From IMG/VR virus record IMGVR_UViG_3300044797_000065, positions 1 to 22,634 of that record: a stretch of 22,634 nucleotides of DNA. One strand, written 5' to 3'. Below the pieces are notes generated by a model, which searched no databases, was not told the DNA's origin, and saw only the letters and a program-made list of their open reading frames with translations. Within the stretch, counting starts at the first letter, position 1. Each line of letters starts with the position of its first letter. The stretch is from a virus. The position numbers and the translations under genes are program-made. Of the stretch, positions 1 through 22,224 are shown piece by piece.

Positions 1-1074
1 AGTCATGCTGAAGGGAATGTGTTGATCCATGCTAATCTTGCTTTGCAGCAAGTTCATCCTTTACTAGAGCAAGTAGAGAATCCCGAAGATAAAGTTGCTC
101 TTTACATTGGTACTATGTGTCATGATTTCGGTAAGAAAGCAGTCTTTGCCATCAGTCCTAAACATGGTCGTATAACTGCTTATGGGCATGAGAGTGCTGG
201 GGTTCCTATTGCTAATGATTTCCTTAAAAAGTACTTTCCTGAGTTTCAATATCCAATGCGTGAGAAGATTCTCCGATTGATTGAGTACCACATGAAACCA
301 CGAATGATGATGAAAGACGGTACATCAGATAAGAAGCTTAAGCTAATGTCTCTTGCTGTTAATACAAAGCTTCTCTATCTTCTTTCAACAGCAGATACTC
401 TTGGCCGAATTGCTGAAGATATGTCGGGATGTGAATTATTGGCAAAATTTAAAGCTGAGTGTGAACGGTTGGATATCTGGGGTAAGCCTTATGTTATTCC
501 AGGATCTGGATTCATGAGTAATCATGGGTATTCAAATGCTCGTTGGAATATTCTAATGCATGATGATCCTGAGACAAATGAGACAATGCAGGATTCAGAA
601 GAACTTATTATGAATGCAGTTCCACGATTCCAGTTGCTGCTTCTTGTTGGGGCTCCAGGTTCTGGAAAGTCTACAATACGTGAACAGCTTGTTAAGCAGT
701 CTCCTGATGTAGTTGTCATCTCAATGGATGATAGACGTAAAGAGCTTACTGGTGATGCAAATGATCAGACATTAAATTCTGAAGTGTTTGCTTGGCAGCA
801 ACGTGAACTTTATAAAGCAATGAAAGCTAAGAAGAATGTTATTGTTGATGCTACCAATACTACAAGAAAGTTGCGTAAGATTTTGTGGGATATTGGGCGT
901 AGATATGGTGCAGCAGTTGGTGCTTTCTATTGGGACTTACCTTTAGAAACTCTTTTAGCGCGTAATGCTTCACGAGAAAAACGAGTTCCTGATTCAGTTG
1001 TAAGACGTTTTTATAATACATTGGAATCTGTGATGCCTTGGGAAGCAGACAAAATCAAGATTTTCGATGCCTAA
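1..1074 (+). CDS. HD-domain / P-loop polynucleotide kinase-like protein (5' end outside window)
   Basis: The reading frame is open from base 1, so the gene starts upstream; 357 residues are visible. The first residues (SHAEGNVLIHANLAL) and the later CHDFGKK match the histidine and HD metal-binding motifs of the HD domain found in CCA-adding enzymes and phosphohydrolases. A linker follows, then a P-loop kinase domain with Walker A GAPGSGKST near visible residue 218, an MDDRRKEL segment and DATNTT, as in T4 Pnk-type AAA_33 kinases. The likely job is RNA or nucleotide end repair: kinase 5'-phosphorylation plus HD phosphohydrolase activity. With the HAD protein at 9334 and the RNA ligase at 20503 it fits a tRNA/RNA repair set. 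The domains are clear; the substrate is inferred. The missing N-terminus could hold a nucleotidyltransferase domain. Confidence 0.85.
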   Translation, partial: SHAEGNVLIHANLALQQVHPLLEQVENPEDKVALYIGTMCHDFGKKAVFAISPKHGRITAYGHESAGVPIANDFLKKYFPEFQYPMREKILRLIEYHMKPRMMMKDGTSDKKLKLMSLAVNTKLLYLLSTADTLGRIAEDMSGCELLAKFKAECERLDIWGKPYVIPGSGFMSNHGYSNARWNILMHDDPETNETMQDSEELIMNAVPRFQLLLLVGAPGSGKSTIREQLVKQSPDVVVISMDDRRKELTGDANDQTLNSEVFAWQQRELYKAMKAKKNVIVDATNTTRKLRKILWDIGRRYGAAVGAFYWDLPLETLLARNASREKRVPDSVVRRFYNTLESVMPWEADKIKIFDA

Positions 1075-1378
1075 ACCTCTGCAATTCTACATTGGTCAAA
1101 TCATACAATTTAATCCGTCTAACGATACTTATGCTGCAATACCTGGAGCTACTGCCAAAGTAACAGGACTAGATGCGTTACCTACTTATATAAGAATTAC
1201 ATGGGTAAATAATGCTTTGCGAAATGGGCAAGCCAATGGTGAGTATTATCCTTCTGATTTCAATACCAAATTTAAACCTTTAAAACCTCTTCTAAAGAAA
1301 GCCCTCAAACGTGGTCGAATAACCAATCTAGAATATTTAGAACTTCTTTCCCAAAAAACTCTTAAAAAAAAGCCTTGA
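1067..1378 (+). CDS. Tagged hypothetical protein without zinc finger
   Basis: 103 residues. The ATG overlaps the end of the kinase gene by 8 nt, so translation is probably coupled. The body (FYIGQIIQFNPSND, TAKVTGLDALPTYIRITWV) looks like a small beta-barrel or SH3-like fold and has no Cys pairs. The C-terminus carries the window-wide motif as TNLEYLELL followed by a lysine-rich tail. It is one of the clearest cases of the motif on a body unrelated to the zinc-finger family. The TGA stop lies inside the TTGACA -35 box of the next promoter. Function unknown. Confidence 0.8.
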   Translation: MPKPLQFYIGQIIQFNPSNDTYAAIPGATAKVTGLDALPTYIRITWVNNALRNGQANGEYYPSDFNTKFKPLKPLLKKALKRGRITNLEYLELLSQKTLKKKP

Positions 1379-1403
1379 CAAGATAACATTCTTCTGTTAT
1401 ATT
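1375..1403 (+). promoter_or_regulatory. Sigma70-type promoter with extended -10
   Basis: TTGACA at 1375-1380, 17-nt spacer, TATATT at 1398-1403, preceded by TG-T (extended -10). Transcription should start near 1410, exactly at the 5' arm of the inverted repeat in the following leader. The -35 overlaps the stop codon of the upstream gene. Confidence 0.8.
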
Positions 1404-1408
1404 TGAAG

Positions 1409-1479
1409 TGTAGATCAGAGGTCGCCTGAATAGGTCATCAATGTCTCAGGGTGATTGTGGAGCCAAGGACCAATCTACA
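1409..1479 (+). ncRNA. Candidate structured 5' leader (possible cis-regulatory RNA)
   Basis: Perfect 7-nt inverted repeat TGTAGAT (1409-1415) / ATCTACA (1473-1479) closes a 57-nt interior. Inside are GGTC (1420-1423) complementary to GACC (1468-1471), and CCTGA (1425-1429) complementary to TCAGG (1446-1450). A second GGTC at 1433-1436 offers an alternative pairing. The element begins at the predicted transcription start and ends 6 nt before a strong AAGGGAGG ribosome site (1486-1493). That layout resembles a riboswitch or autoregulatory leader, but I do not recognise a known class. Confidence 0.45.
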
Positions 1480-1498
1480 AATTTTAAGGGAGGATCAA

Positions 1499-1873
1499 AT
1501 GCCTAAAACAAAAAAGAAAGAAGTGTATTACTTTTATTGTCCTCACTGTGATGAACCAGTGAAGTTTGTGAACTATGATGAGATGACTGCACATATTAAT
1601 TTAGTTCATGCAACAGTTTATGAGAAAGCTTGCCGTGACGAGTATAGTTCAAAACTTCCTTATAATGGTAACAGAGAAGCGTATCAGGAAGATCAACGTC
1701 GCTTGAACACTCAGTTTCAGCGTGATCTCGAAGTCGAGCATGGCGTGGAAAATAACCCTAAGAGAGAAAAGCTATTTGATATCGCTTGGTCCCAGGGACA
1801 TTCGGCTGGTTATTCTGAAGTAGCTATACACTATGATGAAATGGTTGTACTAATTCAAGAACAGGGGGAATAA
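1499..1873 (+). CDS. Small protein with C2H2-type zinc finger
   Basis: 124 residues. The ATG at 1499 is chosen over an upstream GTG (1451) because AAGGGAGG sits 5 nt before it and the GTG lies inside the structured leader. After a lysine-rich start there is a zinc-finger-like CPHCDEP...H-x4-H (HINLVH). The middle is charged and helical, and the C-terminus contains AWSQGHSAGYSEV. It is the first gene of the operon driven by the 1375 promoter. A nucleic-acid-binding or adaptor role is inferred from the finger; no specific family recognised. Confidence 0.85.
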   Translation: MPKTKKKEVYYFYCPHCDEPVKFVNYDEMTAHINLVHATVYEKACRDEYSSKLPYNGNREAYQEDQRRLNTQFQRDLEVEHGVENNPKREKLFDIAWSQGHSAGYSEVAIHYDEMVVLIQEQGE

Positions 1874-1874
1874 T

Positions 1875-2258
1875 ATGTCTTACAATGATAGAGAATGGTT
1901 GGCTTTGCTTAAAGTCGGAGATAGAGTAATTTTTGGTGGATCAGCCTTAAATTCTGATCGTATTGGAACTATTGTGAGATTTACTAAGAATTTTATCATT
2001 GCTTCTCTTGATTCTGGAAATTCTGCCTATGAATACAAATTTCGTAAAGAATCTGGACATGAAACAGGTGGTGGGTATCATCGTTCTTTTTTACGAGAAG
2101 CAACTAAAGAGCGAGTTGATGCTATTAAGTTGGATTATCTTCGCTATCGTGTTAAAAGTCTTTTCCATGATAAGATCGACTGGGATACTGTTCCTCTTGA
2201 AACTCTTGAGCAGCTTAAAGAGATTGGTAAAGCTTTTTTGAAAAAGGAAAAAGTTTAA
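1875..2258 (+). CDS. Hypothetical protein with SH3/KOW-like N-terminus
   Basis: 127 residues, starting one base after the upstream stop, with a GGGGGAATAAT ribosome site. The N-terminal half (LKVGDRVIFGG, DRIGTIVRFTKNFIIASL) has the pattern of a small SH3- or KOW-like barrel. The C-terminal half is helical and charged and ends with FLKKEKV. No catalytic motif. Function unknown. Confidence 0.8.
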   Translation: MSYNDREWLALLKVGDRVIFGGSALNSDRIGTIVRFTKNFIIASLDSGNSAYEYKFRKESGHETGGGYHRSFLREATKERVDAIKLDYLRYRVKSLFHDKIDWDTVPLETLEQLKEIGKAFLKKEKV

Positions 2259-2259
2259 A

Positions 2260-2361: not shown

Positions 2362-2362
2362 T

Positions 2363-3112: not shown

Positions 3113-3113
3113 T

Positions 3114-3471: not shown

Positions 3472-3472
3472 A

Positions 3473-3565: not shown

Positions 3566-3567
3566 CA

Positions 3568-3795
3568 ATGGTTCGAAGTTGGGAAGTTTATTCAGGTAGA
3601 AAGAAAAGTATTATGCTCAAGATGCATTATAGTATCATTGATGAATCTTATTTATGGACATGGAATAAGAAATGGTTGAAAGGTTTTTTGGATAGCAAAC
3701 TAATAACTAACCTTGAGTATTTGGAAGGTATAAAGCTATTAAAGGAGGTCCAAAGGGAAGGTAAGAATCCAAGTCACAAGAAGTTGCCATTGTAG
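3568..3795 (+). CDS. Tagged hypothetical protein without zinc finger
   Basis: 75 residues, with no Cys. The N-terminal part (RSWEVYSGRKKS, IIDESYLWTWNKKW) is basic and aromatic. The tag motif occurs as LITNLEYLEGI about 24 residues before the end, followed by a basic tail, so the motif need not be strictly terminal. The segment before it (KGFLDSKLITNLEYLE) is like the one at 16530 (HKNKLISNLKYLEL). Function unknown. Confidence 0.75.
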   Translation: MVRSWEVYSGRKKSIMLKMHYSIIDESYLWTWNKKWLKGFLDSKLITNLEYLEGIKLLKEVQREGKNPSHKKLPL

Positions 3796-4075: not shown

Positions 4076-4252
4076 GTGGAACACAATCATAAAAGTGTCT
4101 TCTTTAATTTAGTAGCGAATAGCAAGGATCTGCATTATGAGGATAAGCTTAAGGTTTTAGAATTTGCAGCCAATGAATTCTTACGTCAAGATGATAACCT
4201 TTGTTATTTAGAAACGAGATACCTTATGAAAGAATTATATGATGAAAGATAA
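4076..4252 (+). CDS. Tagged small protein, GTG start
   Basis: 58 residues starting with GTG at 4076, directly after the upstream stop. The ATG at 4074 runs into a stop after 12 codons, so GTG is the only useful start. The body (HNHKSVFFNLVANSKD, YEDKLKVLEFAANEFL) is helical and lacks Cys. The C-terminus is the tag, DDNLCYLETRYLMKEL. The final YDE codons contain the ATG of the next gene (4239). It was found by following the tag rather than by ORF length. Confidence 0.7.
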   Translation: MEHNHKSVFFNLVANSKDLHYEDKLKVLEFAANEFLRQDDNLCYLETRYLMKELYDER

Positions 4253-4445
4253 CTTTCCTTGTAAATGTGGGCACTACTTTGTAGAACATGAGCGTGGTAA
4301 ATGGCCTGAATTTAGAGAAGATAAAGATATGCAAAACGGGTGTTTTGTCACTGTAGATTTATTGGGAGCATATTGTCCCTGTATGGAATATAAACCCGAT
4401 AATTTAAAATATTTGGAAAAGATATATGAATCTAAACATAGATAA
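4239..4445 (+). CDS. Tagged zinc-finger protein
   Basis: 68 residues; the start may be 4239 or 4242 (ATGATG). Head FPCKCGHYFVEH is the type form C-x-C-G-H-x4-H. A second Cys set follows (NGCFV, YCPCMEY), consistent with a bound zinc. The tag is PDNLKYLEKIYESKHR. The next gene's ATG lies in the IYE codons (ATA TAT GAA). This is the best template for the family. No enzymatic residues; adaptor or nucleic-acid binding is inferred only. Confidence 0.85.
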   Translation: MMKDNFPCKCGHYFVEHERGKWPEFREDKDMQNGCFVTVDLLGAYCPCMEYKPDNLKYLEKIYESKHR

Positions 4446-4656
4446 GAATTTTCCTTGCAAGCTTTGCAATCATCCAGCAAGAGCCCATTTCACAAGTATT
4501 GTAGAAAGGGGACTGGAAGATATTTGTGGGTATTGTATGGCTAATGCAATTGAATCTTTTTATGATGCTCTGGAACGAAATAAGTTTATCAGTTTAGCCG
4601 TTCATAATTTTGATGGGGATAATTTGAAGTATTTAGAAGATAAGCATGACTACTAA
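4426..4656 (+). CDS. Tagged zinc-finger protein
   Basis: 76 residues, overlapping the previous gene by 20 nt; the start codon is embedded in its tag. Head FPCKLCNHPARAH, a second pair ICGYC near residue 34, then a helical middle and the tag GDNLKYLEDKHDY. Its own HD codons (CAT GAC) contain the ATG of the next gene at 4646. Function unknown. Confidence 0.85.
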   Translation: MNLNIDKNFPCKLCNHPARAHFTSIVERGLEDICGYCMANAIESFYDALERNKFISLAVHNFDGDNLKYLEDKHDY

Positions 4657-8663: not shown

Positions 8664-8927
8664 ATGAAGAATACAATCGGATTCATTGGTTTGATATTAG
8701 TACTCTTGGCCTCAAATCTTCTTGTCTATACACGAGGACTGAATGATGGGAAGTATAATTATCAGCATAGTAAGAACTTTCAACTTACCTTAAACTCCGC
8801 ATACGCCATTGGGTTGCATGATGGGCTTGACATTGGGTTTAATAAGGGGTATACTAAGGGAGCAGTAGATTGCAAGGCTGCATTCTTAAAGCTATCAAAG
8901 AAGCAAAAGAGAAAATGGTGTAAATAA
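8664..8927 (+). CDS. Membrane-anchored small protein
   Basis: 87 residues, with AAAGGAGAATT before the ATG. An N-terminal hydrophobic segment (residues 5-22, IGFIGLILVLLASNLLVY) anchors it. The rest contains the repeated-looking GLHDGLDIGFNKGYTKG and a basic C-terminus. It probably has one span with the soluble part outside or inside the membrane; the topology cannot be decided. Function unknown. Confidence 0.75.
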   Translation: MKNTIGFIGLILVLLASNLLVYTRGLNDGKYNYQHSKNFQLTLNSAYAIGLHDGLDIGFNKGYTKGAVDCKAAFLKLSKKQKRKWCK

Positions 8928-9139
8928 TGAATTACGATCTTTATTGGCCATGCATATGTGGTCATAAACAAATTGAACATGGTATTGTTATGGATAGACT
9001 TAAGTTCCCCTTTTCACCAGATGGATGTGTAGTGCAAGGTGGAACTCATTTAGGAAAGTATAAAGATGATTGCGCTCATTTTAGACCTATGAGTAATTTG
9101 GAATATCTGGAGAGTAGACAAAATGGGTTATCTCGCTAA
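8927..9139 (+). CDS. Tagged zinc-finger protein
   Basis: 70 residues. The ATG overlaps the upstream stop by 1 nt. Head WPCICGHKQIEH (C-x-C-G-H-x4-H), a Cys in DGCVV, DDCAHFRPM before the tag, then MSNLEYLESRQNG. The tag's QNG codons contain the start of the next gene. First member of a pair in tandem with 9123. Confidence 0.85.
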   Translation: MNYDLYWPCICGHKQIEHGIVMDRLKFPFSPDGCVVQGGTHLGKYKDDCAHFRPMSNLEYLESRQNGLSR

Positions 9140-9353
9140 TTGGCCTTGTACTAATTGTCGTCACTTAGCAGAAGAACATGACTTTGATCAGGTAGCCCAA
9201 AAGTATACAGCTTGTTTAGTAAAGTCTGACCTGACAACAGATGTGGGTGACTATGTTAAGCATGAAGTTAATTATGTTGATTATTGTGATGGATTTGAAC
9301 CAATAAGTAATTTAGAATACTTGGAGATGAAAAATGCAAGTGTTATTTCTTGA
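9123..9353 (+). CDS. Tagged zinc-finger protein
   Basis: 76 residues, overlapping the upstream gene by 17 nt. Head WPCTNCRHLAEEH, later TACLV and YCDGFEPI, then the tag SNLEYLEMKNASVIS. The segment before the tag matches the 8927 neighbour (F-x-P-[MI]-SNLEYLE), so the two are probably a tandem duplication. The end overlaps the HAD gene by 20 nt. Confidence 0.85.
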   Translation: MGYLANWPCTNCRHLAEEHDFDQVAQKYTACLVKSDLTTDVGDYVKHEVNYVDYCDGFEPISNLEYLEMKNASVIS

Positions 9354-9867: not shown

Positions 9868-10103
9868 AAGACTATCTGCAGTTCAATGATGAGGATTTAA
9901 CAGCTTTCATTAAGCAGCACAAAGGAACTATTCATACCAGAGAGTTCCCTTCTCGCTGTGGGACCTGTAGATTCATTTCACGATTTGAAGCAGCTGAGAA
10001 GATCGTTAAAGAAACACAAAGACAAATGAAAAGCTGTGGACATGAAAATTGCTGTGAGCTTTGCGAATTAGAAACAGCATGGCGTATGATAGCGGGAAAA
10101 TGA
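9864..10103 (+). CDS. Small Cys-rich protein
   Basis: 79 residues, overlapping the HAD gene by 4 nt (ATGA). It has RCGTCRF and a dense C-terminal cluster (SCGHENCCELCELE), so it probably binds zinc. Helical linker EAAEKIVKETQRQMK. It lies directly before the homing endonuclease, which overlaps its stop. No tag. Function unknown. Confidence 0.75.
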   Translation: MKDYLQFNDEDLTAFIKQHKGTIHTREFPSRCGTCRFISRFEAAEKIVKETQRQMKSCGHENCCELCELETAWRMIAGK

Positions 10104-10894
10104 GTAATTTAAAAGTTTTATTAGAAGATACTCCCGAAGTCTATTATTGGGTTGGTTTTTTATTAGCTGATGGATCTTTGAGAAAAAATGGAAGATTTCA
10201 ACTTTCTGTAGCTATAAAAGATAAACAACATTTAGAGAAATTTGCTAAATTTATTGATTGTCCAGTTCATACTTACTTTGTTAAATTAAATAATAAAGAA
10301 TATCCCCAATGCGAGATACGTATTATGGATAAAAAATGGGCTAAAGCTTTTTCTAATAAATTTGATTTTAGTCATATTAAAACTATAACTCCCCCAAAGA
10401 ACTTAAAGTTTGAGACTTCTGATCTATTCTTAAGTTTATTTATAGGCTTTATTGATGGGGACGGTTGTATTAATAAACAATCAGGAAGACAAGATTGTAT
10501 TCTTCGTGTTAAAGTACATTCATCTTGGCAATCCACTTTACAGAATTGGATAAATATACTATATTCATTTATTACTATTGAAACTAAACATTGGGTAATT
10601 CCTCAAGTAACTATAAATAATCAAGGTTATGCTCAATTTGCTATAGCAAATTCAGATGTCCTTAAATTTTTAAAATACTCTTCTAATAGGTTACAACTTC
10701 CACGTTTAGAGAGAAAATGGAATAAAATTGATTTAAAATATTCTTCTAGGTATATTAAATCTGATTTACGAAAACTTCAAATTATAAAATTTGCAGAAGA
10801 TGGTATACTTTCTCAGAAAGATATTGCCAAAGCAGTAGGAGTTGTAGACTCTTATGTTTCTAGAATTCTAAAAAGAGGTATTAATCATGACTAG
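10100..10894 (+). CDS. Free-standing LAGLIDADG homing endonuclease
   Basis: 264 residues from the ATG at 10100 (ATGA overlap). Two LAGLIDADG helices are visible: WVGFLLADGSL (residues 17-27, Asp24) and FIGFIDGDGCI (about 113-123, Asp121), as in a monomeric two-motif enzyme. A C-terminal helix-turn-helix (SQKDIAKAVGVVDSYVSRIL) probably adds DNA contacts. Such enzymes cut DNA lacking the insertion and spread by repair. Codons are more A/T-rich (many TTA, ATA, AAA) than in the flanking HAD and phosphoesterase genes, a sign of transfer. It sits between two genes rather than in an intron, with both junctions overlapping. Confidence 0.92.
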   Translation: MSNLKVLLEDTPEVYYWVGFLLADGSLRKNGRFQLSVAIKDKQHLEKFAKFIDCPVHTYFVKLNNKEYPQCEIRIMDKKWAKAFSNKFDFSHIKTITPPKNLKFETSDLFLSLFIGFIDGDGCINKQSGRQDCILRVKVHSSWQSTLQNWINILYSFITIETKHWVIPQVTINNQGYAQFAIANSDVLKFLKYSSNRLQLPRLERKWNKIDLKYSSRYIKSDLRKLQIIKFAEDGILSQKDIAKAVGVVDSYVSRILKRGINHD

Positions 10895-11445: not shown

Positions 11446-11628
11446 ATGGATAACTATTTATGTAAATGTAGTCACTTAGAAGAAAGTCATGGACCAGGAG
11501 TTGCATCTAAACAACCATTGTGCTATGATTGTATGGATACAAGTTTGAATTCTAATGTCTATTACCATGAGTTCAGATTAGATGGTCTTAAGTATTTGGA
11601 ACAAAGATATGAAGAGAAAGTTAAGTGA
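11446..11628 (+). CDS. Tagged zinc-finger protein (paralog of 22027 gene)
   Basis: 60 residues, 1 nt after the phosphoesterase stop. Head YLCKCSHLEESH, second pair LCYDC, then YYHEFRLDGLKYLEQRYEE. The last half matches the 22027 product almost residue for residue (PLC-x2-C, Y-HEF-LD-L-YLEQRYEE), so the two are recent paralogs 10.6 kb apart. Function unknown. Confidence 0.85.
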   Translation: MDNYLCKCSHLEESHGPGVASKQPLCYDCMDTSLNSNVYYHEFRLDGLKYLEQRYEEKVK

Positions 11629-12447: not shown

Positions 12448-12666
12448 ATGAAATGCATTAAAGGTCACAAGAATCACAGATGGGTTGTAAATCCACAAGA
12501 GCCTTACTCTTGTTATAAGATTTGTGCTCATTGTAATAATAAAAAATTGTTTGAGAAAGACATAGATGAGTGGGATGTTAATTACAGAAATACCCGTAAG
12601 CCCAAGGGTCATTTCGATAAGATCCTCCCTACTATTCTATCAGATTACTTAGCTATTGACAAATAA
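12448..12666 (+). CDS. DUF1660-like small protein
   Basis: 72 residues, 6 nt after the upstream stop. It starts MKCIKGHKNHRWV and has ICAHCNNKK: the C...GHK...CxxC arrangement of DUF1660-like prophage proteins and of the 2260 mini protein. The C-terminal part is charged. Its last codons overlap the -35 box of the next promoter. Function unknown. Confidence 0.7.
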   Translation: MKCIKGHKNHRWVVNPQEPYSCYKICAHCNNKKLFEKDIDEWDVNYRNTRKPKGHFDKILPTILSDYLAIDK

Positions 12667-12684
12667 GTAATTCTCTGTTATAAT
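12656..12684 (+). promoter_or_regulatory. Consensus extended -10 promoter, predicted leaderless transcript
   Basis: TTGACA 12656-12661, 17-nt spacer, TATAAT 12679-12684 preceded by TGT. The next ATG (12691) is 6 nt past the -10, so transcription should start at the start codon. It drives the long chain of zinc-finger genes that follows. Confidence 0.85.
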
Positions 12685-12690
12685 TAGTAT

Positions 12691-12921
12691 ATGGCTTGGC
12701 ACAATGTAGTTCATGATATCAGAAGTGTTGGATCTTTTAAAAGCTTTTGCCGTAAATGCAGTTGTCATCATCCATTTGATAGTGAGATACACGGATTCTT
12801 GAAAGGCTGCATTTGTAACCCTGCTGGAAGACGTGGCGTATGTGGTAGATACGTTCCAACAGATAATCTGGAATTTCTAGAATATATGTATCAAGAAAAT
12901 TTGAAGGAGAAAAGGCTGTGA
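12691..12921 (+). CDS. Tagged zinc-finger protein (CxxCxC subtype)
   Basis: 76 residues. Head FCRKCSCHHPF, then GCICNPAG and GVCGRYVP, then the tag TDNLEFLEYMYQENLK. It shares the CRxCxC head with the 15666 and 18573 products, forming a subtype distinct from CxCGH. No ribosome site is visible; leaderless start is expected. First gene of its operon. Confidence 0.85.
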   Translation: MAWHNVVHDIRSVGSFKSFCRKCSCHHPFDSEIHGFLKGCICNPAGRRGVCGRYVPTDNLEFLEYMYQENLKEKRL

Positions 12922-13426: not shown

Positions 13427-13550
13427 TTCTAAATCAATAGGTTTATGTGAGTTGTGTGGGCAGCATTACTGTATAGAATGTTCAGATTCTCGTTTTCCTC
13501 AATGGTATTGTTCATATAAATGTGGTCGTGAAAATGGAGCTGATGAGTAA
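13419..13550 (+). CDS. Small double zinc-finger protein
   Basis: 43 residues from the ATG at 13419 (13413 is a second choice). GLCELCGQHYCIECSDSR and YCSYKCGREN supply at least six Cys and one His, similar to a FYVE/MYND-like cross-brace in miniature. It overlaps both neighbours by 8 nt. No tag. Function unknown. Confidence 0.65.
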   Translation: MSNSKSIGLCELCGQHYCIECSDSRFPQWYCSYKCGRENGADE

Positions 13551-13746
13551 TAACGTTCTTTGTTTATGTGGTCACGATCACAGGGATTGGTTTGCCGATA
13601 AAAATATAAAGATGATTCATGCAGTTTGTTATTATAGTCAACTTGATGAAGGGGGATTGAACTATTATTGCCCTTGCAACATGTACAGACAAAATAATCT
13701 TAGTTATTTAGAGAATATTTACAATGACAAAGTTCAGAAAAGGTAA
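13543..13746 (+). CDS. Tagged zinc-finger protein
   Basis: 67 residues from the ATG at 13543, which overlaps the upstream stop region; upstream in-frame ATGs at 13522 and 13531 overlap more. Head VLCLCGHDHRDW, then AVCYY and YYCPCNMYRQ, then the tag NNLSYLENIYNDKVQKR. The YND codons contain the ATG of the next gene. Confidence 0.8.
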   Translation: MSNNVLCLCGHDHRDWFADKNIKMIHAVCYYSQLDEGGLNYYCPCNMYRQNNLSYLENIYNDKVQKR

Positions 13747-13956
13747 TAATCTTTGTCTTTGTGGTTGCCCTGAAAGTTATCATTATTGGATGGATAGTAA
13801 TAGTCCTGATATTTTTTTATTCCTAACAAAGATTCAAGGCAGCGTTGTAAGGGCACAACAATAGGAGATTATTACAGAAATCATTGCACAAGGTTCAAAT
13901 TAGATAATCTTAAATATTTAGAACAAAAGTATACTGAACGGGAGAATGCCTTATGA
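13724..13956 (+). CDS. Tagged zinc-finger protein split by a frameshift (slippery T TTT TTA)
   Basis: In frame 0 it reads from the ATG at 13724 with head LCLCGCPESYH and stops at 13864 after 46 codons. The -1 frame supplies the missing half: RCKGTTIGDYYRNHCTRF and the tag LDNLKYLEQKYTE, ending at 13956. The frames join at 13813-13819, T TTT TTA, a heptamer placed exactly as in programmed -1 frameshifting. The joined product would be about 77 residues, the usual family length. Alternatives are a real one-base deletion or a homopolymer sequencing error. Confidence 0.65.
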
Positions 13957-14063
13957 ACATCACAGCATTTGTATTTACTATATTGCTTGTTATTCTTGCA
14001 TTGAGTGGTCATCCATTCTTTGCGTTGTTTATTTTCTTTGTAGGACGAGATGAGATTTATTAG
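13953..14063 (+). CDS. Very small membrane protein
   Basis: 36 residues; the ATG overlaps the stop of the tagged gene (ATGA) and has CGGGAGAATGCC upstream. Nearly all hydrophobic (ITAFVFTILLVILALSG, then FFALFIFFV), ending GRDEIY: one or two membrane spans. It overlaps the next gene by 14 nt. Confidence 0.6.
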   Translation: MNITAFVFTILLVILALSGHPFFALFIFFVGRDEIY

Positions 14064-14331
14064 TTTTTTAAAGAATCTTTTTACTGAGCCCCATCACCAT
14101 AAAGATATTTGTAATTGCGGTCATTATAGAAAAATTCATGGGGAATTATACTTAATTAGTCTTGTAACTAGTCCAGAAGAAATGCGTGATGGGGCTAAGC
14201 TTGGATGTTACAAACAACCCATGGGTAAGTATTCATTTTGTCAGTGTTTGAAATTTCAGATGGATAACTTAGGTACTTTAGAAAATAGATATGATAGGAG
14301 CTTAACATGGAAAAGATTCTTAAATTTCTAA
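14050..14331 (+). CDS. Tagged zinc-finger protein
   Basis: 93 residues. N-terminal MRFISFLKNLFTEPHHHKD, then head ICNCGHYRKIH, a Cys in LGCYKQ and FCQCLKFQ before the tag MDNLGTLENRYDR. The Y of the YLE core is T here. The tail LTWKRFLNF overlaps the next gene by 25 nt. Function unknown. Confidence 0.8.
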   Translation: MRFISFLKNLFTEPHHHKDICNCGHYRKIHGELYLISLVTSPEEMRDGAKLGCYKQPMGKYSFCQCLKFQMDNLGTLENRYDRSLTWKRFLNF

Positions 14332-14546
14332 ATAAATACTGGCTTGTTTTAACAGCCTGTGGTACAATATTGAGTACTGGGACAGTTGAGATCCTAAAAT
14401 TGGCTGGCAAGATAGATAAAGATATAGCTACGATTACAGCCCTTAATCAATGGGTTTCAGACCACGATGACAGTATTAGTGAATTACAGACCAAGGTGAC
14501 TCGTTTAGAGGCTCTGGAAGAGGCTAGAGACAGGGTATGCAAGTAG
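14307..14546 (+). CDS. Small membrane-anchored coiled-coil protein
   Basis: 79 residues. The ATG lies in the tail of the upstream gene with ATAGGAGCTTAAC before it, a good ribosome site. A hydrophobic segment (YWLVLTACGTILSTGTVEIL) is followed by a helix with heptads (ATITALNQWVSDHDDSIS, then LQTKVTRLEALEEA). The pattern resembles small phage holin-like or Rz-type membrane proteins, but the evidence is too thin to name it. Confidence 0.7.
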   Translation: MEKILKFLNKYWLVLTACGTILSTGTVEILKLAGKIDKDIATITALNQWVSDHDDSISELQTKVTRLEALEEARDRVCK

Positions 14547-14764
14547 ATTTTATCTGTGTTTGTGGTCATGAACCTAAAGCGCACAATGATATGTTGCCAG
14601 GTCCTCCATTTAAAATTATGTATTTAGTATGGAAAGATGTTTGGTGTGTCGAGTGTAATAAATATGCTATACCTGATCAGATAGGTAAGCATAATCCAGA
14701 ACATAAATTTAAACCAGATACTTTGAAGTATCTACAAAATAAATATGAACAAAGATTTAAGTAG
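14537..14764 (+). CDS. Tagged zinc-finger protein
   Basis: 75 residues. Head FICVCGHEPKAH, second pair VWCVECNKY, then HKFKPDTLKYLQNKYEQRFK. The tag has D-T-L and Q in place of E. The KYE codons (AAA TAT GAA) hold the ATG of the 14745 gene; overlap 20 nt. Confidence 0.85.
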   Translation: MQVDFICVCGHEPKAHNDMLPGPPFKIMYLVWKDVWCVECNKYAIPDQIGKHNPEHKFKPDTLKYLQNKYEQRFK

Positions 14765-14960
14765 TTTTCCTTGTATTTGCAGCCATAGATATGATGAGCA
14801 TGGAAGTGAAGGTAAACCTATTGATTTTGGTGGTGGTCCACAATATAGTTACTGTATGCATATTTTAGATGAAGCTGAAGCTCACTATTGTTTTTGTAAT
14901 ATCTATGTACCAGATAAACTTAGTTATCTCCAGCAAAAATATGAAACAAGATCCAAGTAA
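14745..14960 (+). CDS. Tagged zinc-finger protein
   Basis: 71 residues. Head FPCICSHRYDEH, later YCMHIL and YCFCNIYVP, then the tag DKLSYLQQKYETRSK. Start codon inside the previous tag; its own KYE codons carry the next ATG. The N-terminus (NKDLSSFPC) parallels those of 14941 (KQDPSNFPC) and 4426 (NIDKNFPC). Confidence 0.85.
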   Translation: MNKDLSSFPCICSHRYDEHGSEGKPIDFGGGPQYSYCMHILDEAEAHYCFCNIYVPDKLSYLQQKYETRSK

Positions 14961-15180
14961 TTTTCCTTGTGTATGTGGACATGCAAGAGATCTTCATCCT
15001 AGGGAAACTCGCCATCATACTTATATAGTATGTGAAGGCTGCTTTAAAACACATCATAAAATGTATTGGGATGAAATTTATAAGATAGCATGTAGAGTGT
15101 ATAAGAGAGATAATCTTAGATATTTGGAGAGTATACATGAAGAGAAAGCGTCTTTGCACTCATTGCCTAAAGCCATTTAA
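14941..15180 (+). CDS. Tagged zinc-finger protein
   Basis: 79 residues from the ATG at 14941, embedded in the upstream tag; an earlier in-frame ATG (14869) would overlap 92 nt and break the family pattern. Head FPCVCGHARDLH, second Cys set VCEGCFK, then DNLRYLESIHEE followed by an extra tail KASLHSLPKAI. The next gene starts within the IHE codons (44-nt overlap). Confidence 0.85.
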   Translation: MKQDPSNFPCVCGHARDLHPRETRHHTYIVCEGCFKTHHKMYWDEIYKIACRVYKRDNLRYLESIHEEKASLHSLPKAI

Positions 15181-15325
15181 TAAGCATTATAATCGCAGAA
15201 TGCATATGCTCAATGGACAATTTCTGTGGTGTACTCCATTGAAGGATAACTATAATGTGAGTTCTTATTCCCCTATGACTAACCTCGAATATCTAAACTA
15301 TAAGTATGAATCCAAAACTAAATAA
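15137..15325 (+). CDS. Tagged zinc-finger protein
   Basis: 62 residues. Head LCTHCLKPFNKH, one further Cys (WCTPLK), then MTNLEYLNYKYESKTK. The E of YLE is N here. The ATG lies inside the previous tag and the next ATG in its KYE codons. The basic N-terminus (KRKRLC) is unusual for the group. Confidence 0.8.
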   Translation: MKRKRLCTHCLKPFNKHYNRRMHMLNGQFLWCTPLKDNYNVSSYSPMTNLEYLNYKYESKTK

Positions 15326-15590
15326 CTTTATTTGTAAGTGTACTCATGCTGCTGAATATCACAAAAAGATAGATGATGAATTGACGGCTACGTCACAATC
15401 CCCAGGGGGTTTAGGGGAATGGCTGGATGATTGGCCAGTATTTATAATTGGAACTGAGGGAGAAGGAATTTGTTGGTATGGTTGGGAATATACTACATAC
15501 AAAGAAGTTCAGACAAAAGGATGTCAGTGTGAAAAATTTATACCAGACAATCTTAGCTACTTACAAAAGAAATATGAGGAGAAACAATAA
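15306..15590 (+). CDS. Tagged zinc-finger protein
   Basis: 94 residues. Head FICKCTHAAEYH, a long insert with aromatic residues (WLDDWPVFIIGTEGEGICWY), then GCQCEKFIP and the tag DNLSYLQKKYEEKQ. It closes a run of five genes (14537-15590) in which each ATG sits within the previous tag. Confidence 0.85.
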   Translation: MNPKLNNFICKCTHAAEYHKKIDDELTATSQSPGGLGEWLDDWPVFIIGTEGEGICWYGWEYTTYKEVQTKGCQCEKFIPDNLSYLQKKYEEKQ

Positions 15591-15665: not shown

Positions 15666-15869
15666 ATGACTGATGAATTAAACCTAGATGGGCAAGGTTC
15701 ACATTCTAGATGTAGAAATTGTTCATGCCTTCATTGGTATATAAAGGGCAGTGAATGGCCAAAAGAATGTTACTGTCGCGCAATGTTTATGGTTAATGAA
15801 GAATGTGTAAATTATGAGCCTACAGATAATTTAGAATTTCTAGAGTATAAGTATGAGAAAAGTTTATGA
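15666..15869 (+). CDS. Tagged zinc-finger protein (CxxCxC subtype)
   Basis: 67 residues. Head RCRNCSCLHWY, then ECYCRAMF and ECVNYEP, then the tag TDNLEFLEYKYEKSL. It closely resembles 12691 (TDNLEFLEY-x-Y) and 18573 (CRNC-x-C). Its stop overlaps the next ATG by 4 nt. Confidence 0.85.
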   Translation: MTDELNLDGQGSHSRCRNCSCLHWYIKGSEWPKECYCRAMFMVNEECVNYEPTDNLEFLEYKYEKSL

Positions 15870-16087
15870 GTGATAAAAAAGTTAAGGTACAAAGAAGCAT
15901 CCCTGTTAATGGGTATAGCTTTGATGAGAGATGTCGAGAATGTAAGCATACGAATGCTTGGCATGTGGGGCCATATGGTAGGAAGGTTGTGTTATGTGAA
16001 GCGAATTATTATTTTCTCGATAATTTGACTTATAGACCTTGTAAATGTCCAGAATTTATTCCAACAGATAATTTAAAATATCTATAG
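15866..16087 (+). CDS. Tagged zinc-finger protein cut by a stop inside the tag
   Basis: 73 residues. Head RCRECKHTNAWH, then PCKCPEFIP and TDNLKYL, followed by TAG (16085-16087). Reading on in frame gives WKYEKSL and then TAA at 16109-16111; the upstream paralog ends LEYKYEKSL. The TAG therefore stands where the Glu codon of YLE belongs, a single-base GAG or AAG-like change. Either the tag is truncated or read-through yields a minor tagged form. The next ATG lies in the leftover KYE codons. Confidence 0.8.
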   Translation: MSDKKVKVQRSIPVNGYSFDERCRECKHTNAWHVGPYGRKVVLCEANYYFLDNLTYRPCKCPEFIPTDNLKYL

Positions 16088-16094: not shown

Positions 16095-16526
16095 ATGAAA
16101 AAAGTTTATAATAATTGGAAAGAATTTAAAGATTTTATTAATGCTAATGGTGAAGAAGGAGCTACCTTTGGCAGATCTCTTTTGCATAAGGCTTTACCTC
16201 ATATCTCTAAGAATACGATAGATGGCTATCGCAGCATCCTACAGAAGGGTGGTTTCTTTGAATCATTAGGTAGAGGACAATATAGACTACTTCACATGAT
16301 ACCTGAGAACATTACGTGGAAAGAATGTGAGATGCTTGCAAGACATGAGAATCTAGATTATCTTGAGTCACGTCATAATAGGATGATCAGGAAAGAAAAT
16401 AAAGAAAAGAATAAATTTAAAATAGTACTTACAGAGAAAGATATTTCGGACATTGAATACGCTTTTGTTGATAATGATAAGAAGCATTGTAGTAATCAAG
16501 CATGTTGCTGGGGAAGGAGAGTTTAA
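16095..16526 (+). CDS. Winged-helix-like protein with internal tag and C-terminal extension
   Basis: 143 residues, starting within the remnant of the previous tag. Residues 1-75 (WKEFKDFINANGEEGA, LLHKALPHISKNTIDGYRSI, GRGQYRLL) have a winged-helix or HTH pattern. The tag follows internally as HENLDYLESRHNRM (about residues 85-98), then a lysine-rich linker and a 35-residue end with CSNQACCW. The Met right after the tag could be the former start of a second gene joined in frame. A DNA-binding role is likely. Confidence 0.8.
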   Translation: MKKVYNNWKEFKDFINANGEEGATFGRSLLHKALPHISKNTIDGYRSILQKGGFFESLGRGQYRLLHMIPENITWKECEMLARHENLDYLESRHNRMIRKENKEKNKFKIVLTEKDISDIEYAFVDNDKKHCSNQACCWGRRV

Positions 16527-16529
16527 GAG

Positions 16530-16826
16530 ATGAGTGCTTATGAATTCGGGCATCCTATGGTTAAACGCGCAGTCAAAGATAAACCAAAGCTAAAGCCAAT
16601 TAAAATTTATTTTAATGCTACAGTAGTTTGTCCAGATTGTTGTGATACAGGTGATGTAGTTTTAAATAAAGATGCAGAATACTATCATGAATGCAATGAA
16701 GGAAATGTAAGGGCAGAGCTTCCTAAAATAGAAATGCCTATGGGTATTGTAAAGCATCTACATAAAAATAAACTTATAAGTAATCTTAAATACTTAGAAT
16801 TGATAAATGAGCAAAATAATAAATGA
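16530..16826 (+). CDS. Tagged protein with one Cys cluster
   Basis: 98 residues; GGAAGGAGAGTTTAAGAG before the ATG is a strong ribosome site. Basic N-terminus (KRAVKDKPKLKPIKIY), a Cys cluster VVCPDCCDTG plus HECNEG, then HLHKNKLISNLKYLELINEQ. The head differs from the CxCGH type, and the segment before the tag resembles the 3568 product. It overlaps the next gene by 4 nt. Confidence 0.8.
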   Translation: MSAYEFGHPMVKRAVKDKPKLKPIKIYFNATVVCPDCCDTGDVVLNKDAEYYHECNEGNVRAELPKIEMPMGIVKHLHKNKLISNLKYLELINEQNNK

Positions 16827-17059
16827 AGATTTGCAAGCATTGTAAAAGCCCAAAAACTTATCATTATGCGTATGGGGATCATAAATTTGAACTAGATAAT
16901 CTTGATTACTTAGAACGAAAGTTTAATCGCAAAGAAGAAAGAGAAGCGAGGAGAAAAAGAAATTATTGTTTAATATGTCGGTTAGTTAAGAAGTCTCCTT
17001 TTGGTCTTTGTAAAGAATGCTGCGAGATGTTCATTAAGATACACGCGAGTAAACTTTAG
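16823..17059 (+). CDS. Zinc-finger protein with internal tag
   Basis: 78 residues. Head ICKHCKSPKTYH, then the tag LDNLDYLERKFNRKEER after only about 20 residues. After it come a basic stretch and a second zinc-binding module (YCLICRLVK, LCKECCEMF). It looks like a short tag protein fused to a separate Cys4 module. Last gene before the 125-nt gap and the 17136 promoter. Confidence 0.8.
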   Translation: MKICKHCKSPKTYHYAYGDHKFELDNLDYLERKFNRKEEREARRKRNYCLICRLVKKSPFGLCKECCEMFIKIHASKL

Positions 17060-18376: not shown

Positions 18377-18589
18377 ATGGCTCAGTCAGATTATCATTGT
18401 ACCTGTGGGCATTTAGATTCTCAACACTTTTGTTTTGAGAAAGCTCATAAAAAACCTGGGCATAACTGTGCAGTAGCCAATACTTTTTGTGATGGGGAAG
18501 TAGTGGATAGTCCTTTTAGTTGTGATTGCCAACACTTTAAATTGGATAATCTTAGTTACCTACAACATTGTTATGAGAATAAACATTAA
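18377..18589 (+). CDS. Tagged zinc-finger protein
   Basis: 70 residues, 3 nt after the loader gene. Head YHCTCGHLDSQH, then NCAVAN, FCDGEV and SCDCQHFK before the tag LDNLSYLQHCYENKH. Richest in Cys/His of the group, possibly two zinc sites. The next ATG lies in the CYE codons (TAT GAG). Confidence 0.85.
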   Translation: MAQSDYHCTCGHLDSQHFCFEKAHKKPGHNCAVANTFCDGEVVDSPFSCDCQHFKLDNLSYLQHCYENKH

Positions 18590-18815
18590 AGAAGACGGAT
18601 TTAGATGCCGCAATTGTAATTGTTGGCATCAATTGATTGAGCAGGTTAGTTATTATTATCAGAACTTTGAACCTGAGAAGACTTGTGTATGGTGTCCAGC
18701 AGCATTCAGACTCTGTGATCCTGCTGGATTGTATCCCGATATTACTTGTGAGAAATATGAACCAAGAAGTAATTTGATATATCTTCAGATGAAGTATGAG
18801 GAATTGGGCAAATGA
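18573..18815 (+). CDS. Tagged zinc-finger protein (CxxCxC subtype)
   Basis: 80 residues from the ATG at 18573 inside the upstream tag; a start at 18522 would not match the family. Head FRCRNCNCWHQL, then TCVWCPAAF and TCEKYEP, then SNLIYLQMKYEELGK. It is similar to 15666 in the head and in the Cys pair before the tag. It overlaps the next gene by 4 nt. Confidence 0.85.
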   Translation: MRINIKEDGFRCRNCNCWHQLIEQVSYYYQNFEPEKTCVWCPAAFRLCDPAGLYPDITCEKYEPRSNLIYLQMKYEELGK

Positions 18816-19264
18816 AGAATTACGGTGAAGTACTAGCAGACGCTTTGGGGGGATTTTTAATCTCCTATAAAGAGTACGGGTCTTACCAAGGTGATTATGT
18901 AGCTATCATTGAAAAAGCCCAAGAGTGGTATATTTATAAAGGTCACTACGGATCTTGCTCTGGATGTGATTGGTTTAGTGGTGTGGGGGAATATGATGAT
19001 GAAAATTATGGTAGAAAGAATATAGCCCAAAAAGATATTGATGAGTATCTAAAAGAGAATATTCCTTTCTTAGTTATCCCCAAGGATCAGATACCAGAAT
19101 CTATAAGTGATTTGGAAGCACTTCTTCCAGCAAATAGCAGAACAGTTCAGACTGAAAGTTATGATGAAGTAGAATTTAGTCCTTTCTTGTGGAAACAAAT
19201 GCATAATCCTGAATTTGATAAACTGGATTATTTAGAACATAAGCATGAGGAAAATTCAAAATGA
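18812..19264 (+). CDS. Tagged larger protein without zinc-finger head
   Basis: 150 residues, the longest tagged product apart from 21579. The body (VLADALGGFLISYKEYG, YVAIIEKAQEWYIYKGHYG, SCSGCDWFSGVGEYDD) resembles a small globular domain with one CxxC, and FLVIPKDQIP near the middle recalls RLVIPKDAME in the next gene. It ends NPEFDKLDYLEHKHEENSK. The ribosome site is GAGGAATTGGGCAA. Function unknown. Confidence 0.85.
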   Translation: MKNYGEVLADALGGFLISYKEYGSYQGDYVAIIEKAQEWYIYKGHYGSCSGCDWFSGVGEYDDENYGRKNIAQKDIDEYLKENIPFLVIPKDQIPESISDLEALLPANSRTVQTESYDEVEFSPFLWKQMHNPEFDKLDYLEHKHEENSK

Positions 19265-19524
19265 GTACCAAGCATACCATAGCTTATGGACATCCTCCGT
19301 ATTCTGATTTTCATTTGTATTTTGATTATGCAGATTCCGAATACCACTTAGACTTCTATGGAGAAAATTCTTCCCGATTGGTTATTCCTAAAGATGCTAT
19401 GGAGGCTATAGTAGAAGCTTTTAAAATAAGAGGTTTTACGCTACCAAACAATTTGGATTATCTAGAAGCTAGATATGAAGAAGTTAAGGCAGAGATTAAT
19501 GATAAATCAGAGGAATGGGGATGA
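19261..19524 (+). CDS. Tagged protein without zinc-finger head
   Basis: 87 residues, overlapping the upstream gene by 4 nt. Beta-rich body (FHLYFDYADSEYHLDFYG), then RLVIPKDAMEAIVEAF and the tag NNLDYLEARYEEVKAEIN with an acidic tail. There is no Cys at all, so the tag is independent of zinc binding. The VIPKD segment is shared with 18812, suggesting a partial relation between the two. Confidence 0.85.
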   Translation: MSTKHTIAYGHPPYSDFHLYFDYADSEYHLDFYGENSSRLVIPKDAMEAIVEAFKIRGFTLPNNLDYLEARYEEVKAEINDKSEEWG

Positions 19525-19736
19525 TGTACATCGATCCTTATTTCCCATGTAAAACATGTGGTCATAAAGCGTGGGAGCATTACATAAGTATTGGTAGAGG
19601 AAAGGCTATTTGCCTTAATTGTTTTCTTGAAGCAGCTAATAAAGGTCCAACATCTAATTTTAAAGCAGATCATGAATTTGTTGGAGACAATCTTAAGTAC
19701 TTAGCAAGTAAAGAAGCCCTTGACATTAAGAAATAA
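19521..19736 (+). CDS. Tagged zinc-finger protein with degenerate tag
   Basis: 71 residues; the start is 19521 (ATGATG; 19515 is also in frame), with AGAGGAATGGGG before it. Head FPCKTCGHKAWEH, second pair ICLNC, then GDNLKYLASKEALDIKK: the E of YLE is A and the YE pair is missing. The degenerate end also encodes the -35 of the next promoter (CTT GAC ATT), which may explain the drift. Confidence 0.8.
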   Translation: MMYIDPYFPCKTCGHKAWEHYISIGRGKAICLNCFLEAANKGPTSNFKADHEFVGDNLKYLASKEALDIKK

Positions 19737-19748: not shown

Positions 19749-19756
19749 TGGGATAT

Positions 19757-20140: not shown

Positions 20141-20493
20141 TGAGAAAGAAACTTACATTAAATGAAGCATTATCAATTGTCCAAGAAACTGCTGAGCCTG
20201 TTAAGAAATTAGCAGCAGAGAATAAGATTGTAGAATTTCTCCATGATCATGCTTTTCATATTACGTTTAATGCTAATGACTTGTTTGGGTGGGCTTGTGC
20301 TGATTCCGTAGATGTGGCGATTGAAGACTTGCCTAAGATGCTCGAAGTGTATAAATTATTTGGATCAGCTGGATTGGATGCACTTCTAGCTTTGATTGAC
20401 CAAAGCGAAGTACAAGAGCCTCTTAATACGGATAAGTACAAAGAGGCAAAAGAATATTTAAAAGATTATCGTCCTGCGAGTTGGGTTCATTAA
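20140..20493 (+). CDS. Hypothetical protein
   Basis: 117 residues, overlapping the upstream stop by 1 nt, with AAAGAGGTAACAAGGTA before the ATG. Helical body (TLNEALSIVQETAEPVKKLA), ITFNANDLFGWACADSVDVA in the middle, and an end with KEAKEYLKDYRPASWVH. The NDLFGWACADSV segment is typical of small phage hypothetical proteins. Function unknown. Confidence 0.75.
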   Translation: MRKKLTLNEALSIVQETAEPVKKLAAENKIVEFLHDHAFHITFNANDLFGWACADSVDVAIEDLPKMLEVYKLFGSAGLDALLALIDQSEVQEPLNTDKYKEAKEYLKDYRPASWVH

Positions 20494-20502
20494 GGAGGAA
20501 TT

Positions 20503-21567
20503 ATGGAAAGAAAATTGGCATCAATTCAAACAATTTTAGAAGTGTTGCCTCACACTAATGCTGATACCCTTGAGATTGCTAAGGTCTTAGGTTGGACTTG
20601 TGTTGTTCTTAAAGGACAATTTAAGAAAGGCGATCACATTGTTTATATTGAACCAGATTCTATTCTTCCTCCTGGTAAATCAGAATGGGAATTCATGAAG
20701 GACCGTGGATACCGAATTAAGACAATTAAGCTTCGTGGTGTTGTTAGCCAGGGCTTAGTTTTTAATGCCCATACTCTCTTAGCTGAGAAGTATTTGCCTT
20801 TATGTGAAGCATTGAATGTTTCCCCCCTTCCTGATGGTACAGATGTGACAGAAGCTCTTGGAATAACTAAGTATGAGCCTTATACCCCTGAGCAGCGGGC
20901 ACAGCTCTTTGGTACGGTGAAAGGTAACTTTCCTGAATTCTTATCTAAGACCGATGAGACCCGTATTCAAGCCATACCAGAGGTTTTATATAAACACCAA
21001 AATAAAAAGTTTTATGTTACAGAGAAGGTTGATGGCTCAAGTATGACTGTTTATTTCAGGCGTAGTGAGCATTTTGTTGACGGTGAGTTTGGTGTTTGTT
21101 CCCGTAATCTAGACCTTAAAGAGACTGAGAGTAATGCCTTTTGGAAGACAGCACGAGAGCTTGATCTTGAGAATAAGCTGCGTAGCCTTAATCGTAATGT
21201 TGCTTTGCAAGGTGAATTGCTTGGTCCTGGAGTTCAAGGTAATAAGTACAAACTAGATAAGCTTGGTTATTACATTTTCAATGCCTACGATATTGATACG
21301 GGGTTTCACTTTAACTATACTGATCTAGCACAGGTTGTAGAATATCTTGGGCTTACTCATGTCCCTTTTGTTAGTGATTCTTATATACTGCCAAATACGG
21401 TTGATGAATTAGTTGAGTATTCTAAAGGCAAGAGTCTTTTAAATAAAGATGTACATCGTGAGGGTATTGTATTGCGCCCCCTGATTAATGAATATTCTGA
21501 GGAACTTAGGGGTCGTCTTTCATTTAAAACCATCAATCCCGACTTCTTGTTGAAGTACAATGAATAG
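20503..21567 (+). CDS. ATP-dependent RNA ligase (Rnl5 / DRB0094-like)
   Basis: 354 residues, with TAAGGAGGAATT before the ATG. The N-terminal ~100 residues form an OB-like domain (GQFKKGDHIVYIEPDSILP), as in Deinococcus Rnl5 and related ligases. The nucleotidyltransferase part has motif I EKVDGSS (Lys175 adenylated), motif III-like YYIFNAYD, motif IV EGIVLRP (about 320) and motif V SFKTIN (Lys342). It seals RNA nicks or broken tRNAs using ATP. With the HD-kinase and HAD proteins this gives the core of an RNA repair pathway, probably against host anticodon nucleases (inference). Confidence 0.93.
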   Translation: MERKLASIQTILEVLPHTNADTLEIAKVLGWTCVVLKGQFKKGDHIVYIEPDSILPPGKSEWEFMKDRGYRIKTIKLRGVVSQGLVFNAHTLLAEKYLPLCEALNVSPLPDGTDVTEALGITKYEPYTPEQRAQLFGTVKGNFPEFLSKTDETRIQAIPEVLYKHQNKKFYVTEKVDGSSMTVYFRRSEHFVDGEFGVCSRNLDLKETESNAFWKTARELDLENKLRSLNRNVALQGELLGPGVQGNKYKLDKLGYYIFNAYDIDTGFHFNYTDLAQVVEYLGLTHVPFVSDSYILPNTVDELVEYSKGKSLLNKDVHREGIVLRPLINEYSEELRGRLSFKTINPDFLLKYNE

Positions 21568-21578
21568 AAATCATTAAT

Positions 21579-22034
21579 ATGGATGACATAAAAGTAGGTA
21601 TTTTTAAAGATCCACAAAGTTTAGCCGATGTTTACTCAATTAATGTTCCTATGTTTGTTGAAAATAGGCTAAGGTCGGATATAATTTATAATGTTGTTAA
21701 TTCTTTGACTCATTCTATCTCTAATAATATTTTAAAAGAGCATGGTGAGGAGATGGTTCAAACTATTTTAAATAAAGAAGCAGAGATTAAAGATAGAATT
21801 ATAAATACAATTTGTAAAAATATTGAATGGTTTGCTCATGAACTTATGATGTTGCAAAGAAATTTTGACAATAAAGAACTTTGTCAATGTGGACAAGTAC
21901 ATGGAAATATCACTAGGTATGGAGAAATTCCTTTCGAAATGCAGCATTTTTTTGTTCCTATGTCAAATTTACAATACCTAGAACATAGATATGATAGAGT
22001 ACAGAAATGGATAAAGGGTTTGAATTATGAATAG
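21579..22034 (+). CDS. Tagged protein with large N-terminal domain
   Basis: 151 residues. Residues 1-90 are helical with no Cys (LADVYSINVPMFVENRLR, ILKEHGEEMVQTILNKEAE, INTICKNIEWFAHEL). A CQCGQVHGN half-finger follows near residue 107, then the tag PMSNLQYLEHRYDRVQKW. The N-terminal domain resembles small phage proteins with 'VENRLRSDI' helices, but no function is known. It appears to be a tag-protein tail joined to a separate helical domain. Confidence 0.85.
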   Translation: MDDIKVGIFKDPQSLADVYSINVPMFVENRLRSDIIYNVVNSLTHSISNNILKEHGEEMVQTILNKEAEIKDRIINTICKNIEWFAHELMMLQRNFDNKELCQCGQVHGNITRYGEIPFEMQHFFVPMSNLQYLEHRYDRVQKWIKGLNYE

Positions 22035-22224
22035 TATTCCTTGTAAGTGTGGTCATAATAATGATGAACATAGAATAGGAGCATTAACTGGAAATCCACT
22101 TTGTAATTTGTGTGTAAATAAAACTTCTAGAGGAATGGCTTCTTCATATGTTTACCACGAATTTCAACTAGATAACCTTAGGTATCTAGAACAACGATAT
22201 GAAGAAAGTTTAGAAATGGGTTAA
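22027..22224 (+). CDS. Tagged zinc-finger protein (paralog of 11446 gene)
   Basis: 65 residues, overlapping the upstream gene by 8 nt. Head IPCKCGHNNDEH, second pair LCNLC, then YVYHEFQLDNLRYLEQRYEE and a short tail. It matches the 11446 product over its second half. No enzyme motif. Confidence 0.85.
   Translation: MNSIPCKCGHNNDEHRIGALTGNPLCNLCVNKTSRGMASSYVYHEFQLDNLRYLEQRYEESLEMG

Follow-up and report, generated by a model that had tools for sequence, protein, structure and literature searches.

SHOCT (PF09851) is a short C-terminal module found on unrelated proteins, and the ankyrin/PRANC proteins of poxviruses join variable target-binding bodies to a common C-terminal docking module, with a ubiquitin ligase as partner. 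The internal proteins of phage T4 are diverse, host-directed small proteins that share only a capsid-targeting sequence (CTS) of 10-20 residues (PMC3012670; PMC5694885), while the encapsulin cargo-loading peptide, of ~10 residues and usually C-terminal, docks unrelated cargo to an HK97-fold shell (PMC7355545). Here we describe a short peptide tag carried at or near the C-terminus by numerous small proteins of a group of phages, as seen in IMG/VR record IMGVR_UViG_3300044797_000065 (positions 1 to 22,634, the whole stretch analysed, hereafter the window), a 22.6-kb fragment of a virus. The tag resembles SHOCT in being a short C-terminal module on unrelated bodies, with a different core motif, and it resembles the ankyrin/PRANC proteins in layout, which differ in belonging to a eukaryotic virus and in having a ubiquitin ligase as partner.

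We read the motif, at a probability of roughly 60%, as a docking or address tag, short and C-terminal, through which the proteins would reach a common partner. A shared recognition peptide would explain its invariance across unrelated bodies, the selection on the peptide, its free distance from the C-terminus and its phage-specific dialects. This joins, through one testable feature, dozens of unannotated small genes per genome that are usually dismissed as ORFans.

The core motif and its copies

Relatives were sought by scanning IMG/VR with a back-translated tag pattern, which returned a few contigs, each rich in copies; such DNA patterns did detect relatives, whereas viral scans based on alignment or on proteins did not. 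One contig, IMGVR_UViG_3300036766_000678 (G001, 180 kb), matched a relaxed pattern at 38 sites, every one of them on the same strand, with 0 in the controls. The main sample comprises the window and six related IMG/VR contigs (G001-G006), which are incomplete and have approximate gene starts, and two further scans yielded ~15 more contigs with at least two tags, a few of them near-identical to one another. The tag thus offers a simple sequence handle for finding further members of the clade. Matches in bacterial genomes (84) and to ribonucleotide reductase (DNLEYFEDAYE) were rejected as background.

The true core spans seven residues, [DNST]-N-L-x-Y-L-E, and holds 22.3 bits of information over these positions, with N1, L2, L5 and E6 invariant in 94-99% of tags. 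It starts 10 to 59 residues from the C-terminus, with a mode of 15. At a threshold of at least 12 bits, a position-specific scoring matrix gave 167 terminal matches across the window and G001-G006, and 0 when this DNA was reversed; the seven-column core gave 201 on coding strands and one on opposite strands. An 11-column profile identified 192 tagged open reading frames (ORFs): 27 in the window, 46 in G001, seven in G002, five in G003, 21 in G004, 61 in G005 and 25 in G006. The core count of ~200 is higher because it adds shorter tags, such as DNLKYLESKI directly before the stop codon. A sequence-only reading of the window had extended the motif to a trailing [Y/H]-[E/D]; its core was upheld, but this extension is not part of it, being in part the ATG of the next gene (TATGA) and in part phage-specific.

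Translation of the window located the motif at every one of the 29 genes which that reading had listed, all on the + strand. In 27 the copy is intact and in frame, and in those at 13724 and 15866 it is broken. Three copies had been described as near-end or internal; those at 16095 and 16823 do lie far from the end (59 and 54 residues), but that at 16530 is an ordinary terminal tag, 14 residues before the stop. The copies are as follows.

1067-1378, +: non-zinc body, tag TNLEYLE at 1322-1342; no Pfam match
3568-3795, +: non-zinc body, tag TNLEYLE at 3706-3726
4076-4252, +: non-zinc body, tag DNLCYLE at 4193-4213
4239-4445, +: zinc body, tag DNLKYLE at 4398-4418
4426-4656, +: zinc body, tag DNLKYLE at 4618-4638
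8927-9139, +: zinc body, tag SNLEYLE at 9092-9112
9123-9353, +: zinc body, tag SNLEYLE at 9306-9326
11446-11628, +: zinc body, tag DGLKYLE at 11581-11601
12691-12921, +: zinc body, tag DNLEFLE at 12862-12882; strong sigma70-type promoter just upstream at 12656-12684
13546-13746, +: zinc body, tag NNLSYLE at 13693-13713
13724-13953, +: broken copy; body frame stops at 13864, tag DNLKYLE at 13903-13923 in another frame
14050-14331, +: zinc body, tag DNLGTLE at 14263-14283
14537-14764, +: zinc body, tag DTLKYLQ at 14717-14737
14745-14960, +: zinc body, tag DKLSYLQ at 14913-14933
14941-15180, +: zinc body, tag DNLRYLE at 15109-15129
15137-15325, +: zinc-like body, tag TNLEYLN at 15278-15298
15306-15590, +: zinc body, tag DNLSYLQ at 15546-15566
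15666-15869, +: zinc body, tag DNLEFLE at 15825-15845
15866-16087, +: broken copy; zinc body, in-frame TAG at the tag's Glu codon (16085-16087), so that it ends DNLKYL-stop
16095-16526, +: body with an untagged G005 homologue, internal motif ENLDYLE at 16347-16367
16530-16826, +: body with CxxC but not of the zinc group; terminal tag SNLKYLE at 16779-16799
16823-17059, +: short zinc-like body, motif DNLDYLE at 16895-16915, then a Cys-rich extension
18377-18589, +: zinc body, tag DNLSYLQ at 18545-18565
18573-18815, +: zinc body, tag SNLIYLQ at 18768-18788
18812-19264, +: phrog_28969-type body, untagged in its Seuratvirus homologues; tag DKLDYLE at 19217-19237
19261-19524, +: non-zinc body, tag NNLDYLE at 19447-19467
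19521-19736, +: zinc body, tag DNLKYLA at 19686-19706
21579-22034, +: longer N-terminal domain and short Cys/His stretch, tag SNLQYLE at 21963-21983
22027-22224, +: zinc body, tag DNLRYLE at 22171-22191; predicted terminal helix, residues 50-64

In the gene at 13724 the tag is reached only via a frameshift, perhaps at the run of seven T at 13812-13818; for this break, as for the TAG in 15866, sequencing error and decay are indistinguishable. Elsewhere in the window, an ORF at 10061-10894 resembles, by eye, a LAGLIDADG-type homing endonuclease.

Bodies and detachability of the tag

Zinc assignments were made from sequence patterns only. About 19 bodies of the window form one loose zinc-binding group (CxCGHxxxxH...C...C), with those of 1067, 3568, 4076, 16095, 16530, 18812, 19261 and 21579 outside it, so that the earlier description of the carriers as otherwise different proteins is strict for about eight and loosens to a single group for the rest. 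Such a distribution could arise if the tag were a structural C-terminal helix of one large zinc-domain family, packed on the zinc core of expanded paralogues, the non-zinc carriers having decayed or fused. The bodies do align loosely, and 126 of the 150 small zinc-like ORFs in the same genomes are tagged. However, the other 24 zinc proteins lack the tag, and 32 copies sit on bodies without the zinc pattern, from ~25 unrelated families. It is therefore neither the case that every carrier is a zinc protein nor that every zinc body is tagged, and the bodies do not all belong to one diverged family. The same residues are invariant on every body type, and known bodies occur in other phages without the tag: the 18812 body has tagless homologues in Escherichia phages Seurat and Dru_SM1, and L162:17806-18279 has one in the huge phage LR756500. 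Within the clade, the 16095 homologue in G005 is likewise untagged. The tag is a module independent of its bodies, with dissociation in both directions.

Structure prediction bears on the same question. AlphaFold2 placed the tag of the window zinc protein 22027 in a C-terminal helix (residues 50-64; mean pLDDT, predicted local distance difference test, 66, helix 70-74), and did likewise on an unrelated beta-rich body (residues 124-138; pLDDT ~90 for the body and 62-73 for the tag), which argues against a helix peculiar to the zinc core. In both models the helix begins just after D, and is capped by the D/S/T that precedes N. The models, of modest confidence, suggest that the tag forms an N-capped terminal helix. 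Taken together, a purely structural helix appears unlikely. A Foldseek search with the zinc model returned nothing significant, while the beta body L172:4371-4793 matched tail-tube/Hcp/baseplate and PilZ folds (Foldseek/VIA, Z up to 7.0).

Several variants were seen at the termini of related proteins. An untagged orthologous zinc pair (G001 and G005) shares a different tail, GxDGDEIxVxYDSxSxxWN. The G006 homologue of the FSQIKEKFGG body (L172:6363-7955) is apparently interrupted by an intein and has the look-alike tail ENLEIVEDAYEKK at its end. Two tagged proteins, L163:4836-5540 and L169:12506-13357, contain long low-complexity repeats (NNLWNNLE, SSLYSSLD), with a weak, below-cut-off match to DUF6745.

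Phage-specific dialects

Residues 7-9 are more alike within than between phages, even on non-homologous bodies (0 of 500 permutations), and the same test found no within-phage likeness at residues 11-12. Tyr at position 9, for example, occurs in 42 of 47 tags in G001 and in 8 of 57 in G005. This pattern, read from sequence, fits co-evolution with a receptor that each phage would encode for itself.

Genomic context and the protease question

The phages of this clade are large myophages, as G001 encodes a tail sheath. Its terminase is closest to that of Bacillus phage G (30% identity), its putative capsid proteins had no sequence match in INPHARED, and the collections searched held no close isolate. 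No enrichment of the tag was found in the huge phages LR756500, 508, 511 and 501 or in Bacillus phage G, with 1-4 matches against 2-8 for reversed-pattern controls.

In both G001 and G003 the final base of the portal stop codon is also the first base of a tagged gene, and the terminase-portal block of G001, G003, G004, G005 and several smaller contigs has 2-3 tagged zinc proteins as fixed members. Conservation in these portal-adjacent orthologues peaks at the core, at 0.93 and 1.00, whereas the body reaches 0.66 and 0.55. Elsewhere, tagged genes form dense arrays. As the portal block, promoter-led arrays and the neighbourhoods of ClpP-like genes all hold tagged genes, the tagged proteins do not belong to a single expression class. 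Across the window (including 12656-12691), G001, G004 and G005, 41 strong promoters resembling TTGACA-N17-TATAAT, often with an extended TG, were observed; in 18 of these the first ATG lies 4-8 nucleotides past the -10 box, which suggests leaderless mRNAs. In the head block of four phages a trypsin-like protease with an apparent lipoprotein signal adjoins the portal, and searches for defence families gave no match. The proteases are located as follows.

L162:13999-14661, L176:13189-13815, L177:3649-4302 and L172:12863-13516: ClpP-like proteases among tagged genes, two of them in G005
L166:3963-4613: trypsin-like protease (G004 copy, the one compared with Pfam)
L161:3931-4596, L165:2458-3126 and L175:4665-5369: likely trypsin-like proteases

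ClpP-like proteases are encoded by G001, G005, G006 and G008, in the first three among the tagged genes, and this proximity would suit a degradation or stability signal for a Clp-type protease of host or phage, or an adaptor tag that brings target-binding bodies to one. The motif is not anchored at the C-terminus, however, as an ssrA-like degron would be at its extreme position, but starts 10 to 59 codons before the stop. No Clp ATPase was found above the cut-off, the ClpP-like proteins have Asn, by eye, at the position of the catalytic Asp, and PHROGs places them with head-maturation protease families, a match that also counts in favour of the docking reading. We regard such a signal as quite improbable.

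Selection on the peptide

The sequence-only reading had proposed that the Leu, Tyr and Glu codons vary synonymously and that selection acts on the peptide, and both points are borne out. For an invariant residue, two tags have identical codons with a probability of 0.45, 0.51 and 0.40 in the window, G001 and G005, against 0.47, 0.53 and 0.42 expected from codon usage, and all six Leu codons are used. Since codon choice in the tags is as random as genome usage, selection acts on the peptide, and conservation at synonymous sites neither equals nor exceeds that of the amino acids. The synonymous sites are saturated, which excludes recent copying of tag DNA.

Overlap with the next gene accounts for part of the trailing residues. 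In 97 of the 192 tags the tail contains the start of a downstream ORF (ATG-started, at least 40 codons), often in the TATGA of the Tyr-Glu codons, and Tyr at position 9 falls from 64% with such an overlap to 33% without it; the trailing Y-E is therefore partly a by-product of gene overlap. A translated DNA or RNA element (ribosome-binding site, overlap, promoter or recombination site) might draw on this ATG, but is very improbable and is refuted for the core, holding only for part of the Y-E conservation, as core codons are random, conservation of the core is equal in the 39 tags without an overlapping start, and its mean nucleotide identity within a genome is just 0.64 to 0.71.

A candidate address system

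If the tag is a docking peptide, its terminal helix would be bound by one putative receptor, probably phage-encoded, that serves every tagged protein of a given phage. Binding would bring a large and varied set of small effectors, most of them zinc-binding, to a single site or machine, and a phage-encoded receptor would co-evolve with the tags, so that positions 7-9 come to differ by phage. The fullest version, in which one receptor assembles tens of exchangeable zinc-binding effectors into the virion or onto a takeover or proteolysis machine while receptor and tags diverge into dialects, is a tentative proposal.

Where the cargo would go is more doubtful still. Our leading guess is the assembling head, from which the cargo might be packaged and ejected with the DNA by analogy with the T4 internal proteins; a cytoplasmic takeover hub is a guess of similar standing, and the head is favoured a little because tagged orthologues are fixed beside the portal and because of the T4 precedent. 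A protease or adaptor system is a somewhat less probable destination than either. Three observations count against head cargo: some tagged genes lie behind strong sigma70-type promoters of host type, the ClpP-like genes are outside the head block, and the prohead proteases S77 and S78 were not found, although the S77 search is uninformative as its control was silent too.

Other points weigh against a docking tag more generally. The earlier reading had proposed an amphipathic helix, of which the N-capped terminal helix is predicted, but the conserved residues are spread round it and no one-sided face is evident (conservation moment p ~0.3 against permutations). About five in six bodies are zinc domains, perhaps of one diverged superfamily, and the helix may be structural in these. 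Two members of the L162:17806-18279 family, those of G005 and G006, carry at their ends a helix that resembles the tag but differs from it (LEIVExAY), and tags may thus originate by drift of helices already present. The dialects, finally, might stem from common ancestry among the tags of one phage that is too remote to detect. Should docking hold, the identity of the receptor would give all tagged proteins a common destination and reveal how small effectors are gathered and exchanged by large phages, and the tag could serve as a short, portable genetic tag for targeting in phage-infected cells or capsids.

Comparison with known systems

Small CxCGHxxxxH zinc proteins occur in actinophages and share the zinc pattern of most bodies; a zinc body weakly matched a protein of Streptomyces phage Mildred21, over residues 7-37 only, a stretch that does not reach the tag. 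The N-L-x-Y-L of the core loosely resembles the sliding-clamp-binding peptide QLxLF, and no sliding clamp was found in G001, G004, G005 or the window, although the contigs may lack parts of the genomes and the host might supply a clamp. No Pfam match to SHOCT was obtained at E-values up to 1 for ten window proteins (including 1067, 3568 and 16530), and the best matches of the tag profile to PDB sequences (E 0.2 or worse) were judged chance. The tag matches no known family or paper, the literature searched containing neither the string DNLEYLE nor a description of a similar tag.

Like the encapsulin cargo-loading peptide, the tag is short, C-terminal and carried by unrelated proteins, but it has another sequence and far more carriers, and sequence searches with the clade's capsid proteins returned no match. 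With the T4 CTS it has in common that one short peptide is seen on small phage proteins that are diverse in other respects. The CTS lies at the N-terminus and is removed by the prohead protease, which cuts after Glu, whereas the tag is C-terminal and present on dozens of proteins per genome. Lacking the defining N-terminal position it is not a CTS, but by analogy it may work like one.

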